From positions 1 through 20,704 of the IMG/VR virus record IMGVR_UViG_3300046777_001404: DNA of 20,704 bases. One strand, 5' to 3'. This document shows positions 1,995 through 20,291 of this stretch, one piece after another. The notes beneath the pieces were generated by a model. It made no database searches. It was not told the DNA's origin and worked only from the letters and a program-made list of their open reading frames with translations. A program made the position numbers and the translations under genes. The first letter of the stretch is position 1; each line of letters starts with the position of its first letter. This DNA is from a virus.

Positions 1995-3491
1995 TTACCC
2001 CTGGAATCCGAAGTCACGTAGCACTTGCAATGCTGCAGTTGATACGTCTTCTTTTGCTTGAGCAGTATACTGCCAACGATTATCTTGACGAAGTTGCTTT
2101 CTAAAGTCATACAAGTTCATATCGCCTTTTTCTGTAATTGCAGAACGAAGCAATGGGTCGTTAAGATCAATCTGGTTAGGATCGCCAATTTCAAGGACGT
2201 TAGCCATTACTTGGCGATAGGGAGCAAAGACTTGCTTAAGGTTATAGCCCTGAGCAAGTAAGTCACGTACATATGCAGGTTGTCCCTGTGCTGCTAGTTT
2301 ACGAGCATCGCTTATCACACGGTTAACATCAATGTTGCCAGAGATGATTCCTTGTATAACTTGCTGTTCTGTTGTAGCACCTGGCAAAATATCGCTTACT
2401 TGGAATCCATTATCACGAGCTGCTTCGACCAACTTGTCATAGTTAGTAAGTGCCTCACCTGAGTAACCTTGAGTTACTTTGCCACCAATCATTCCTGCTA
2501 TTGGCTTGACAGATGCTGCAAGGAAGTCTGTAATAAAAGTTTCATCATCGCTACGATTAGTAATATAAAGATTCTCTGCTGCTTGACGTAGCGCTGCAGG
2601 ATCATTAGCCGCAGCAGAACCAATCTCTACAGCACGCTTCTTGAGTTTTGACTCAATCTTTGCAATTTCCATCTCATAGGCAGTTGTTCCTTTTGCCTGA
2701 CCAGATGCTTGCAAATCACGATAGTTGTAATACTGGACATAACGGTTCTTGATTTCTTTAGAGTTCTGCTTAAACCAAACATCATCACGAATTAGTTTTA
2801 AGAAAGCAGCCTCTGTCATACCAGGAGTATTTACATACTTCTTAAGTATCGCATTAAGACTTGGGATATTCTTAAACAAAGTCTCTGGTAGCGCTAAGTC
2901 AGTAGCGGTAGATGCAGCACCAAGTGCTGTTGCTTCTCTATCTGCAGGAGTAGGAGTTGGTGTTGTATCACCAGGCTTTGGCTTTGGCTTTGGCTTTGGA
3001 GTTCCAGGCTTTGGCGTAGGCGTAGGCGTTGGAGTAGGAGTAGGTGTAGGAGTTGGCGTTGGAGTAGGACTTGTAGGTCCTGTTGGTCCTGTTGGTGCTC
3101 CTCGATCTGGCGTAGAAGTGACAGTAGATGGCTTTGCTGCAGCCTTTTTACGTGCCTCTACAAGAATGTCATTAGACCTCTTAATTGCTGTATCAACTGT
3201 TTTGTTGAGTGAGTTATAGTCCTTGACTAATTTGTCAAACTCTCTTTGTTCTACTGTAGAAAGTTTATCTCCACGAGCAATTTTTCTAGCCCAAATTGCA
3301 AGCTGTGATTCATACTGCTCTAGTCTTGGCTTTAGAGTATTAGCATAATCAGTTTGGCTTTTAGAACGTGCACGTGCTTCAGCATCTATTTTATCCTTTG
3401 ATGCCTGTGCTTGTGCTTTTGCAGCGGCAGTTCTTGCTGCTGCTTGAGCGGCCTTTGCATCTGCAATTAACTTATCAACATCAATTGCCAT
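1995..3491 (-). CDS. 498-aa protein with Pro-Thr/Pro-Lys linker, virion-associated
   Basis: Three parts are visible. Residues 1-118 are Ala/Lys/Glu-rich and probably form a coiled coil. Residues about 119-183 are a low-complexity linker: GAPTGPTGPT, then a run of alternating Pro-Thr, then Lys-Pro repeats, then Pro-Thr again. Residues about 198-498 form a helical domain starting ALPETLFKNIPSLNAILKKY and ending DFGFQG, with EAAFLKLIRDDVWFK near 227-241. Extended Pro/Thr linkers often join domains of secreted or virion cell-wall-acting proteins. The ATG at 3491 overlaps the stop of the 221-residue gene (TAATG), which implies translational coupling. No lytic active site is recognisable. A two-domain internal or tail-associated protein is the best description. 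Confidence 0.65.
   Translation of the reverse strand: MAIDVDKLIADAKAAQAAARTAAAKAQAQASKDKIDAEARARSKSQTDYANTLKPRLEQYESQLAIWARKIARGDKLSTVEQREFDKLVKDYNSLNKTVDTAIKRSNDILVEARKKAAAKPSTVTSTPDRGAPTGPTGPTSPTPTPTPTPTPTPTPTPTPKPGTPKPKPKPKPGDTTPTPTPADREATALGAASTATDLALPETLFKNIPSLNAILKKYVNTPGMTEAAFLKLIRDDVWFKQNSKEIKNRYVQYYNYRDLQASGQAKGTTAYEMEIAKIESKLKKRAVEIGSAAANDPAALRQAAENLYITNRSDDETFITDFLAASVKPIAGMIGGKVTQGYSGEALTNYDKLVEAARDNGFQVSDILPGATTEQQVIQGIISGNIDVNRVISDARKLAAQGQPAYVRDLLAQGYNLKQVFAPYRQVMANVLEIGDPNQIDLNDPLLRSAITEKGDMNLYDFRKQLRQDNRWQYTAQAKEDVSTAALQVLRDFGFQG
2974..3069. repeat. Hexamer repeats encoding Lys-Pro and Pro-Thr linker
   Basis: On the plus strand, four GGCTTT units at 2974-2997 are followed after a short gap by nine GG(C/A/T)GT(A/T) hexamers from 3013 to 3066. 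Read on the minus strand in the frame of the 498-residue gene they give KPKPKPKP and a long PTPTPT run. The synonymous variation between units (GGCGTA, GGAGTA, GGTGTA and so on) suggests the peptide is maintained by selection and is not a fresh slippage product. Such tracts can change length between relatives. Confidence 0.85.
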
Positions 3492-17036: not shown

Positions 17037-17328
17037 CTACATAGCACAACAGGTCGCTGATATGAAAAGAAAACTAGAGAAAGAAGCAAGCAATATCTAT
17101 ACCATACACCCGCGTAAGTCTGAGCTGATCCTCTTGTACGAGGTAGTGGACGAGAGCGGGAGAGCAGAGTGGGGCGGGGCTAATGCTGAGCACGCTATCC
17201 AATGGCTAAGCCTTGCGCCAAGAGAGGCACGCATACTGGTATCTGCGTGGGATAGTGATGAAGAGGACGCTCATTTAGTAGGCCAGACCATAGACATCAC
17301 CGAGATAGTAAGGGCAGCGAGCTTATGA
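17029..17328 (+). CDS. 99-aa conserved-type actinophage hypothetical protein
   Basis: The start is taken at the ATG at 17029, behind GAGGAGGAAGAG and overlapping the preceding stop as ATGAGTAA. An upstream in-frame opening at 16966 has no ribosome site. The body reads SELILLYEVVDESGRAEWGG, then ANAEHAIQWLSLAPREARIL, VSAWDSDEEDAHLVGQTIDI. The 'WGG.(A/D)A..A..WL' and 'VSAWDS..EDA..VG..ID(I/V)T' pattern is one I associate with small proteins in actinobacterial genomes, plasmids and phages. The function is unknown. It is an alpha/beta soluble protein without Cys or membrane helices. The stop overlaps the next start. Confidence 0.7.
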   Translation: MSNYIAQQVADMKRKLEKEASNIYTIHPRKSELILLYEVVDESGRAEWGGANAEHAIQWLSLAPREARILVSAWDSDEEDAHLVGQTIDITEIVRAASL

Positions 17329-17408
17329 GTTACTGGTTAGGGATAGCGGTGATAATGGTGATAGTCTATGTGCTTATAGTGTGGGAGGACAAGATCAATG
17401 GAGAGTAA
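17325..17408 (+). CDS. 27-aa membrane peptide
   Basis: Reading MSYWLGIAVIMVIVYVLIVW followed by EDKINGE, it is a single membrane helix with an acidic tail. It overlaps the preceding gene as ATGA and the next by 11 bases. Position just before the transglycosylase region makes it a candidate lysis accessory peptide. Being so small, it could also be a chance frame. Confidence 0.45.
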   Translation: MSYWLGIAVIMVIVYVLIVWEDKINGE

Positions 17409-17679
17409 AGAGGTTAGTGGCAAGCAAGCAATTCATTACCGCAATTACCGGAGAGCAAGAGACAAGGCATTAGTACGCCTAGCTCACCTGTATCCAGACA
17501 CATACAAGCAACTGCTTGATGAACAAAGGAGTTTCGATGAGCAAGAGGGCAAGACTTGGGTTATTAGTAGTAATAGTAGGCTTACTGTGGGCGTTCATAC
17601 CAGAGCGAACAACACACCTACCTTTGGAGATCCCGCAGATGCAGGAGCGGACGAAGGCTACGATGGAGGAGAAGCGTGA
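17398..17679 (+). CDS. 93-aa protein overlapping the lytic transglycosylase
   Basis: Residues 1-50 (KQAIHYRNYRRARDKALVRL, AHLYPDTYKQLLDEQRSFDE, then EGKTW) look like a real, helix-rich, basic phage protein of a type seen in actinobacterial phages. Residues 51-93 are low-complexity (Ser/Thr/Asn, then Gly/Asp/Ala) and overlap the transglycosylase frame. The ATG at 17398 has GGAGG about 11 bases upstream. The stop at 17679 overlaps a GTG that opens the next ORF. The tail may therefore be unconstrained, while the N-terminal half is the conserved part. Confidence 0.65.
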   Translation: MESKEVSGKQAIHYRNYRRARDKALVRLAHLYPDTYKQLLDEQRSFDEQEGKTWVISSNSRLTVGVHTRANNTPTFGDPADAGADEGYDGGEA

Positions 17680-17968
17680 GAACAAAGCACTTGCAGTTAG
17701 TTTCCTCAGAGCACTCGGTTACAACGCACAACAGCGAGAGTGTGCGGTCACACTTTGGACCCGTGAATCCCGCTTCGACCACCTTGCTCGCCCAAGAGAC
17801 TCTTCGGGCAAACCAGTTAGCTCAGCTTTCGGAATTGCTCAGCTCCTTAGAGAACGTAGTGGAGAACCTGAACTACAAATCCTTCACGCTGTACGATACA
17901 CTCAACACCGTTATCGAGGAAGTTTCTGCAGTGCTCTCCGCCACTCCGATAGAGTCGGCTGGTACTAA
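17537..17968 (+). CDS. Lytic transglycosylase-like cell wall hydrolase
   Basis: The 143-residue product has an N-terminal membrane anchor or signal (RLGLLVVIVGLLWAFI, 6-21) after basic residues. A spacer follows, then a transglycosylase domain at about 50-143. Visible hallmarks are LWTRESRFDHLA (73-84) with the probable catalytic Glu77, AFGIAQLL (97-104), HRYRG (124-128) and a C-terminal GWY, as in lysozyme-like muralytic domains of actinobacteria and their phages. It would cleave glycan strands of peptidoglycan at host lysis. The ATG at 17537 is chosen because AAAGGAG lies five bases upstream. An earlier in-frame ATG at 17516 lacks a good site. The gene overlaps the previous ORF by 143 bases and the next by 293 bases in other frames. 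No holin is certain. Confidence 0.82.
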   Translation: MSKRARLGLLVVIVGLLWAFIPERTTHLPLEIPQMQERTKATMEEKRENKALAVSFLRALGYNAQQRECAVTLWTRESRFDHLARPRDSSGKPVSSAFGIAQLLRERSGEPELQILHAVRYTQHRYRGSFCSALRHSDRVGWY

Positions 17969-17978
17969 GAATTGTTAG
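17676..17978 (+). CDS. 100-aa ORF overlapping the transglycosylase in another frame
   Basis: The GTG at 17676 overlaps the stop of the 93-residue gene as GTGA, and GGAGGAG lies just upstream, so translation by coupling is credible. The first 45 residues are Ser/Thr/His-rich and unremarkable. Residues about 46-90 (LAQLSELLSSLENVVENLN, then YDTLNTVIEEVSAVL) look like a real amphipathic or coiled-coil helix pair. It ends ten bases past the transglycosylase stop, right before the terminator. It may be a real overprinted gene or a shadow of the transglycosylase frame. I favour real slightly less than even. Confidence 0.42.
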   Translation: MRTKHLQLVSSEHSVTTHNSESVRSHFGPVNPASTTLLAQETLRANQLAQLSELLSSLENVVENLNYKSFTLYDTLNTVIEEVSAVLSATPIESAGTKNC

Positions 17979-17993
17979 GTTTCTAACCCTTTC

Positions 17994-18041
17994 CTAGCAA
18001 ACAAAAAGCCCTCGCCGTAACTGGCAGGGGCTTTTTGCTAG
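17994..18041. terminator. Bidirectional terminator between convergent cassettes
   Basis: AAAAAGCCC (18003-18011) pairs with GGGCTTTTT (18027-18035), and the stem continues inward with GCC/GGC after a small mismatch. The loop is about six bases. The outer CTAGC at 17994 and GCTAG at 18041 extend the symmetry. The T-run on either strand makes a good intrinsic terminator for both the plus cassette ending at 17978 and the minus cassette ending at 18084. Confidence 0.85.
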
Positions 18042-18083
18042 CACTCATAGGCGGGATTGCCTACCGAGATCTAAAGTGTAGCA

Positions 18084-18809: not shown

Positions 18810-18943
18810 AAAGATTTACCCGCATCTTTTATACATTCCAATACCATTCCCATTTCAAGATCAGAAGGTAGATCTTCTATACTCCAACTGCCAGATAAAA
18901 CTAATTCATCTCGGACAAAATTAATAAGTTCTTTGTATGTCAT
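18806..18943 (-). CDS. 45-aa hypothetical protein
   Basis: The product begins MTYKELINFVRDELVLSGSW and continues SIEDLPSDLEMGMVLECIKD AGKSL. It is acidic and helical, filling the gap between the sigma-like gene and the nuclease-like gene and overlapping both (ATGA with each). The overlaps and strand support a real gene. No family is recognised. Confidence 0.6.
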   Translation of the reverse strand: MTYKELINFVRDELVLSGSWSIEDLPSDLEMGMVLECIKDAGKSL

Positions 18944-19572
18944 TGCCACGGACTAACCCCGCCTAGATTATCCTGCAATCTACGCAAAGACTGAGCGCAC
19001 CTACGATCTGCGGTAGAGATGGCGCACTCTAGTACCTGTGCTATCTGTTGCAGGGTAAAGCTCTCGTGATGACGCATACGCAAGAGAGCCTGGTCCTCTT
19101 GGTCTAACTTAAGAAAACCTTTCTTGATGTCAATGAGGTTAGCAAGTAGGTTGCCACCTTCTGCTGGAGATGATGAACCTTTAGGTTGCCCATCTCTAAT
19201 CATCTCTTGTGCTTGCTCTAATACTGTGCCATCTATGACTGATGCAATAACAAAGGGAAGCAACTGACCAAGGGTAGCTGACTCATAGTAGGCTTCGTCA
19301 TTAGTCTGATAACCAGACTTAGCAGCCTTCTCCTTGCGTGCGTATCGCTCTCCTGCACGCTTCATCTGCCACGCTATGCGTTGCTCGTTGTGCTTGCGTC
19401 GCTCTTCGATAGGTTCCATTAGATCAATGATGTGATCTTCTACTCTAGTCATAGCCCACGCCATCAACTCTTGCTTGATGTCATCCTTCTCAACGTGCTT
19501 GTTATACCTACGATGGATAGTGTTAGCAACACTAGGCACTAGGTCATAGATTACTGGGTGCAGTTCAGTCAC
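18940..19572 (-). CDS. Sigma-70-like transcription factor of the phage
   Basis: The C-terminal part (about 150-202) has a sigma region 4 pattern: KLDQEDQALLRMRHHESFTL, then QQIAQVLECAISTADRRCAQ and SLRRLQDN. This is a helix-turn-helix with the recognition helix around STADRRCAQSLRRL. The N-terminal part (about 10-48, ANTIHRRYNKHVEKDDIKQE, then LMAWAMTRV) is like sigma region 2, with the 'DDI.QE...WA' core. A spacer with Lys/Glu-rich helix lies between. Phage sigma factors redirect host RNA polymerase to viral promoters. The start is GTG at 19572, overlapping the upstream stop as GTGA. It lies away from the late genes, in the cassette expected to act early. Alternatively it may be a non-sigma HTH regulator. 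Confidence 0.72.
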   Translation of the reverse strand: MTELHPVIYDLVPSVANTIHRRYNKHVEKDDIKQELMAWAMTRVEDHIIDLMEPIEERRKHNEQRIAWQMKRAGERYARKEKAAKSGYQTNDEAYYESATLGQLLPFVIASVIDGTVLEQAQEMIRDGQPKGSSSPAEGGNLLANLIDIKKGFLKLDQEDQALLRMRHHESFTLQQIAQVLECAISTADRRCAQSLRRLQDNLGGVSPWQ

Positions 19573-19673: not shown

Positions 19674-19830
19674 TAGGCCACCTTGATTCAATATAATCGT
19701 TTAAGATTATTGCGTTAAACATTATGTCTGTGTATGTAATAAAGTACGCTTTGTCAGGATCCCTATAACTTGCATCAATTGAAGGCTTATCACCGGAAAG
19801 CACGTAAACAAGTCTTTCTATCTCATCCAT
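19666..19830 (-). CDS. 54-aa hypothetical protein
   Basis: The product begins MDEIERLVYVLSGDKPSIDA, continues SYRDPDKAYFITYTDIMFNA and ends IILNDYIESRWPNE. It is acidic and alpha-beta in pattern. The ATG overlaps the stop of the HNH gene (TAATG), and its end overlaps the next start by eight bases. It is part of the coupled minus-strand cassette. No family is recognised. Confidence 0.6.
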   Translation of the reverse strand: MDEIERLVYVLSGDKPSIDASYRDPDKAYFITYTDIMFNAIILNDYIESRWPNE

Positions 19831-20291
19831 TAGTTGACCTCGCTATGTCGTTTAATATATGCAGCAATAATATCAAGTGATACATTCCTGTTCTCTATGT
19901 TTCCTAGCATATGGTTACAACCAACACATAGCAGTTCACGAACAGCGCCTGTAGTGTGATTGTGATCTACTGCAAGGATACTCGTAGTCCCGTCTCTACG
20001 CTTCTTAGTTTCTGGCAAACCGCATATGGCGCATAGATGATTCTGCCGTGCCGACATAGATTCATAATCTTCAACGGTAATACCATATCGTTTCTTGTAG
20101 TGCTTGTTACGATTAGCGTTAGGGTTATTCTTTCTATAATTATCTATGTGTTTTCTTGCTTTGGCTTTGTGATACTCAGGGTCAGATGCGTACCTAGCAC
20201 GTGCCTGAGCACGTACTTTTTCTGCGTTCTTGGCACGCCACTCACGAGCATAAGCGTTGCGTTCTTCTTTGGTCATCAAGATTTTGGCCAT
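19830..20291 (-). CDS. HNH endonuclease VII-like nuclease
   Basis: The 153-residue protein has a basic helical N-terminus (1-70) and a recombination endonuclease VII-type domain at about 70-150. Hallmarks are HLCAICG (C87, C90), ILAVDHNHTTGAVRELLCVG (D109, H110, H112) and LLCVGCNHMLGN (C122, C125). The four Cys hold a zinc ion and the D-H-N-H core cuts DNA at branched structures, resolving Holliday junctions and packaging debris. It could also act as a homing-like nuclease, but its place inside an operon suggests a core phage function. The ATG at 20291 overlaps the preceding gene by 16 bases. A second start at 20276 (TGATG) would remove five residues. Confidence 0.88.
   Translation of the reverse strand: MAKILMTKEERNAYAREWRAKNAEKVRAQARARYASDPEYHKAKARKHIDNYRKNNPNANRNKHYKKRYGITVEDYESMSARQNHLCAICGLPETKKRRDGTTSILAVDHNHTTGAVRELLCVGCNHMLGNIENRNVSLDIIAAYIKRHSEVN

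Follow-up and report, generated by a model that had tools for sequence, protein, structure and literature searches.

The best-known cases of genes that are dual-coded over their whole length come from very small viruses, whose genomes are tightly limited in size. In tailed phages, the lambda-type Rz/Rz1 spanins combine an envelope-disruption gene with another gene that lies inside it in a different frame, Rz1 being an outer-membrane lipoprotein of phages of Gram-negative hosts. Spanins have been the subject of a review (PMC6139136). Another alternate-frame pair, olg1/olg2 of Pseudomonas phage Fc02, is involved in superinfection exclusion (PMC9936078). In the microvirus phiX174 (Microviridae), gene K (50-221) is covered by gene A (to 136) together with gene C (from 132) (PMC11527146); of the three, K is regarded as the one that arose de novo (PMC8227390).

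Here we analyse a locus in a 20.7-kb IMG/VR virus record, which in its entirety is referred to as the window and whose positions are used for numbering throughout. In this locus a transglycosylase-like gene, which we call B, is shared between an upstream ORF (A) and a downstream ORF (C). Among deposited phages, LanE43AprE7/F5 (OX376640, OX376641), isolated on 'Ca. Planktophila' (PMC10202952), come nearest in both the terminase (46%) and the transglycosylase-like protein (44%); for this reason the host of the window phage may reasonably be taken to be a freshwater actinobacterium. The explanation of the whole that we consider very probable is that the locus is a compact operon end in which B lies wholly within other coding sequences and C is a genuine gene that was written once over B.

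Organization of the locus

A, B and C lie on the plus strand and together occupy all three reading frames, as can be read directly from the DNA (Table 1). B shares 143 bases with A and 293 bases with C, and A and C share 4 bases with each other; 143+293-4 = 432, which is all of B, so that 0% of B is single-frame. An earlier note on this DNA had set out the coordinates and frames of the three ORFs, the GTGA at which A and C meet and the Shine-Dalgarno-like sites of B and C, and in the sequence we find all of these as it described them. The two overlaps that it gave for B are also correct, but its estimate that at most about 14% of B would be single-frame is not, since the overlaps leave no base of B uncovered.

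Table 1. Features of the A-B-C locus, in window positions.
Feature	Position	Strand	Basis and remarks
Z, 27-residue mini-ORF with a single membrane helix (MSYWLGIAVIMVIVYVLIVWEDKINGE)	17325..17408	+	sequence; upstream of A, 11-base overlap with A
A, 93-residue ORF	17398..17679	+	basic N-terminal core conserved; last 46 codons shared with B
AAAGGAG, ribosome-binding-like site of B, within A	17525..17531	+	sequence; 5 bases 5' of ATG 17537
B, transglycosylase-like gene, 143 aa	17537..17968	+	phrog_35836 match, distant relatives with Pfam SLT, alignments, model
GGAGGAG, ribosome-binding-like site of C, within A and B	17665..17671	+	sequence; 4 bases 5' of GTG 17676
GTGA junction, read in all three frames	17676..17679	+	A stop TGA 17677-17679 overlaps C start GTG 17676-17678
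C, 100-residue gene, most likely overprinted	17676..17978	+	B+1 frame; open frame, selection, predicted helix
Hairpin and T run, probable terminator of the plus-strand operon	18002..18037	+	RNA fold

The start of Z forms an ATGA overlap with the preceding gene. A Z-like mini-ORF ends near the A start in 114/120 relatives, with an identical 11-base overlap in 91 of them, and Z may be a small membrane peptide of a holin-like or accessory kind. On the other side of the locus, the RNA fold of 17996-18044, which holds the strong hairpin of the probable terminator 3' of C, has an energy of -24.3 kcal/mol (z -4.3). A minus-strand match to the Rfam Thr_leader family at 17999-18070 (27.6 bits, gathering 55) falls on this hairpin and is almost certainly spurious. 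Elsewhere in the window, PHROG matches mark a sigma-factor-like gene (18940-19572, minus strand) and an endonuclease VII/HNH-like gene (19830-20291, minus strand), and a predicted protein encoded at 1995-3491 (minus strand) has a long PTPTPT/PKPKPK repeat linker in its middle.

The C frame stays open where A is present

Relatives were gathered from IMG/VR by means of three different proteins plus further, more distant starting points; a DNA-level search of deposited phages found nothing. The set used for frame C consists of 188 distinct loci with an NTGA junction, at which the A stop overlaps the C start; one contig (L096), in which the junction is apparently missing, has ambiguous bases and was left out of the count. 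Frame C is free of stop codons in every one of the 188. Its length is 92-105 residues, and its end always lies 4-25 bases past the B stop.

A codon-shuffle comparison, as proposed in the earlier note, was run in two forms. If each relative's B protein is held constant while the codons are redrawn according to the codon use of the phage, ~3.5 stops are expected in frame C and the mean probability that the frame is open is ~0.012. Permuting B's own codons leaves the frame open in ~22% of shuffles, because that codon set is already depleted of stop-making codons. The depletion depends on context: B codons of the form NTA are found before a purine, where they would produce TAA or TAG in frame C, in 0/1181 contexts, whereas NTA before a pyrimidine is common (209/720), and control genes, taken from elsewhere in the window, have NTA ahead of a purine in 201/586.

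A natural control is provided by 49 related enzymes without A and the junction, among them the enzyme of LanE43AprF5. The frame in the C register contains 1-7 stops in 47 of these, and the mean over all 49 is 3.9, near the calculated expectation. The two that are open (L264 and L268) are a near-identical pair, 37-40% like the query, and their open frame, with neither A nor junction beside it, is probably due to chance. Apart from truncated contigs and these chance-open frames, upstream A, the junction and an open C occur all together or are all absent. The earlier note had held that relatives keeping the enzyme but with stops scattered through the C frame would make C a shadow: within the A-B-C clade there are no such stops, and they appear only outside it, where they mark the C-less state.

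Selection in the overlapping frames

Synonymous and non-synonymous change, a comparison likewise proposed in the earlier note, was evaluated with a home-made pairwise method in the style of OLGenie, in which differences in independent pairs are sorted by their effect in both frames; the logic of OLGenie for overlapping frames has been described (PMC7531306). Where the change is non-synonymous in B, C-altering changes are rarer than C-silent ones (C NN/NS 0.64, bootstrap 0.44-0.86), in contrast to the enzymes without C (1.38, 0.90-1.99). With B held synonymous, SN/SS for C is 0.18 (0.13-0.25) versus 1.56 (0.78-3.9) in C-less enzymes, a ratio that is less reliable than NN/NS because SS sites are few; in the single-frame part of A, SN/SS comes out at 0.5 but NN/NS at 1.2. 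On the 188-sequence set C NN/NS is 0.72 (0.51-0.95). When the gene is divided into thirds, the NN/NS intervals include 1, and the ratio climbs towards 1 at larger divergence, which fits saturation and limits the strength of the estimate.

In the overlap of A and B there is purifying selection on both (A NN/SN 0.40, 0.27-0.56; B NN/NS 0.35, 0.23-0.54). The proposal that B itself is a shadow is rejected, as B NN/SN is ~0.33 and distant homologs exist. Some residues of C are nearly fixed over variable residues of B: L76, above B positions 122-123, is found in 184/188, and L43 and R44 are nearly invariant in the loci having that segment. By this test there is purifying selection on C and, over the part of B that is shared with A, on both of these genes. 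Together with stop avoidance and the out-group control it agrees with two proposals of the earlier note, namely that all three frames are in use and that the downstream ORF could be a new gene.

The A-C junction and the probable mode of translation of C

A ends at the same junction in 121/122 loci, and in the 188 relatives the junction reads GTGA in 181 and ATGA in 7, with an overlap of A stop and C start in every one. The ribosome-binding-like site of C (TGGAGGAG/TGGAGGAA; GGAGGA) is kept in most relatives and is absent in the ATGA subclade (L370, L376, L377, L378, L379, L382, L386, L395). In this subclade the junction lies a few codons upstream, in a different sequence and without a clear ribosome-binding sequence, and the overlap of stop and start has been re-formed there. 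This is best explained by selection on the arrangement itself, as in termination-reinitiation, and the subclade is a natural test of translational coupling. We saw no slippery heptamer at the junction (GGAGGAGAAGCGTGA), making frameshifting less likely.

The pattern of the junctions suggests that C is probably translated by termination-reinitiation at NTGA. Ribosomes would translate A up to the TGA inside NTGA and re-initiate at the overlapping GTG or ATG to produce C, usually aided by GGAGGAG, while B would be initiated separately, inside A, at AAAGGAG.

Gene B

B matches families annotated as transglycosylase in PHROGs (phrog_35836, E=2e-8; another at 6e-5) and is distantly related to transglycosylase-annotated proteins of Streptomyces phages. 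The window B has no significant match in Pfam; of two such Streptomyces phage relatives, one matches Pfam SLT at E 4.1e-8 and the other at 2.7e-4, just below the cut-off, and the out-group relative reaches SLT at E 1e-3, likewise below the cut-off. E77-S78 and G99-I100-x-Q102, a GIAQ-type motif, are invariant in 57 aligned B sequences, C-less enzymes included. The earlier note had credited B with its own AAAGGAG site and a conserved-looking domain, and both hold up. On the basis of its sequence relatives, the invariant Glu77-Ser78 and the GIAQ-type motif, B is likely a transglycosylase, and E77 may be its catalytic glutamate.

The predicted model of B has an N-terminal hydrophobic helix (residues 3-19) and a helical fold (pTM 0.62). 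Compared with PDB structures it gave no confident match, with one lysozyme at E 4.2. B would be a membrane-anchored or exported muramidase-type enzyme that acts on the host wall. Bacterial genomes, when scanned, yielded neither a relative of B nor a pointer to the host, and in LanE43AprF5 no other endolysin was found among the 10/26 longer ORFs scanned.

Predicted properties of protein C

C is predicted to form a single long helix (residues 32-89) with pLDDT mostly >90, and the model contains no membrane helix. Its leucines and valines follow a heptad pattern that is stronger than in B-preserving redraws (median z 3.4). Sequence searches gave no significant match for C in Pfam, PDB sequences or deposited phages, and structure searches in BFVD and PDB gave no match. 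Against PHROGs, 3/93 aligned members had weak matches only (best E 0.004), to families of unknown function; as C has no family in PHROGs, annotation probably misses it.

From the long helix and the heptad pattern, our best guess is that C is soluble, forms a coiled coil and is produced in concert with A. It would be an acidic, helical protein encoded inseparably with B, and, judged by this linkage, C is most likely an accessory or regulator of the wall-acting module of B. A more specific version, in which C is a de novo coiled-coil regulator of B (a timing or holding factor, say), linked to its enzyme through the coupling to A and by inseparability, we regard as unlikely. If C does regulate B, enzyme and regulator must evolve together base by base.

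Origin of C

When the enzyme domain is placed on a tree, the sequences with C form one side of a branch (support 94/92), and C-less enzymes are found on both sides of the midpoint root, which is uncertain; recombination among these phages could distort this tree. There are relatives of B, those of Streptomyces phages included, that lack A and C, whereas no relatives of C itself were found, which argues that B is older and that C was written over it. To the earlier note A and C had looked like an original gene pair; the distribution of relatives speaks for the reverse order. The reading most likely from these sequences is that C was born a single time, written over an enzyme gene that already existed, and this would have happened in the common ancestor of one phage clade, which carries A upstream as well. 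The result would be the compact end of a phage operon, with the first third of B on the 3' end of A and the remainder on nearly all of C.

Alternative explanations

Two other accounts of the open frame dispense with a protein C. In one, C is a shadow, kept open by the amino acids and codon bias of B, and its likeness among relatives is passive. B is indeed well conserved, so that many residues of C are forced, permuted B codons leave the frame open in ~22% of shuffles, and two distant C-less enzymes are open as well. These two outliers are, however, near-identical to each other, 47/49 C-less enzymes have stops, stop-making codons are avoided only in the context in which they make stops (0/1181), the start-stop junction is kept in 188/188, and both NN/NS and SN/SS fall below 1 in the C clade but not in the C-less enzymes, and we give this account only a very slight probability. 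In the other, what constrains the codons is not coding but a structured or regulatory RNA element of the B transcript, which would also lower third-position variation in B. Yet the avoidance is limited to the stop codons of one frame, and the first position of B codons, which is the third of C codons, varies more relative to the second position of B, as it does not in C-less enzymes. No Rfam family was found in A, B or C, the sole weak match being at the downstream terminator hairpin, and we attach almost no credence to an RNA element.

The remaining two accept C and differ from our reading in how it is made or when it arose. C might not be started separately at its GTG but be made exclusively by frameshifting from A or as an A-C fusion, and it does lie in the -1 frame of A and begin exactly at the A end. 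Against this, the junction lacks a slippery heptamer, GTG or ATG is preserved exactly where it overlaps the stop, in most cases behind a strong ribosome-binding-like sequence, and in the ATGA subclade the two codons shift together, all of which leaves a fusion product very improbable. C might instead be ancestral and have been lost along with A in the C-less enzymes, rather than gained in one clade; a single change on the tree may be read in either direction, and the root is uncertain. Against this, C-less enzymes flank the midpoint root, Streptomyces phage relatives at a greater distance are annotated as free-standing genes, and C has no homolog elsewhere, which together make loss improbable.

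Comparison with known systems

The closest relatives among deposited phages, LanE43AprE7/F5, are likewise tailed phages and have the closest terminase and B-like protein, but the enzyme gene of LanE43AprF5 has neither A nor C, is preceded by a gene that reads as WhiB-like and has 4 stops in the C frame. Since enzymes with and without C are both present in related phages, the birth of a gene by overprinting is here open to a before-and-after comparison.

Other tailed phages offer partial parallels. The Rz/Rz1 spanins resemble the present locus in that a tailed-phage gene acting on the host envelope has a nested alternate-frame gene; they differ in that the model of C contains no membrane helix and in that here no part of the host gene is left uncovered by its two partners. 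olg1/olg2 of Fc02 share with it an alternate-frame second gene in a tailed dsDNA phage, but the genes and the function are different.

The A-K-C genes of phiX174 have the most similar topology. There too the spanning gene is wholly covered by two others, the outer genes here overlapping by 4 bases, and K begins within A, runs across the A-C junction, at which A and C overlap by a few bases and every frame is read, and ends in C. None of the Pfam and PHROG results for the window A, B and C points to phiX174 proteins. The phiX174 genes belong to a small ssDNA phage, whereas the phages described here are tailed dsDNA phages, as indicated by their terminase; and the spanning K is regarded as a small de novo gene, whereas the spanning B is most likely the older gene and it is the nearly nested C that would be new. 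Relative to the phiX174 topology the present locus differs in the type of virus, in having an enzyme as its spanning gene, and in that the probable newcomer is an outer gene, one that lies almost wholly within the enzyme gene. A wholly dual-coded gene is here kept across a diverse clade of tailed phages, over an enzyme domain.
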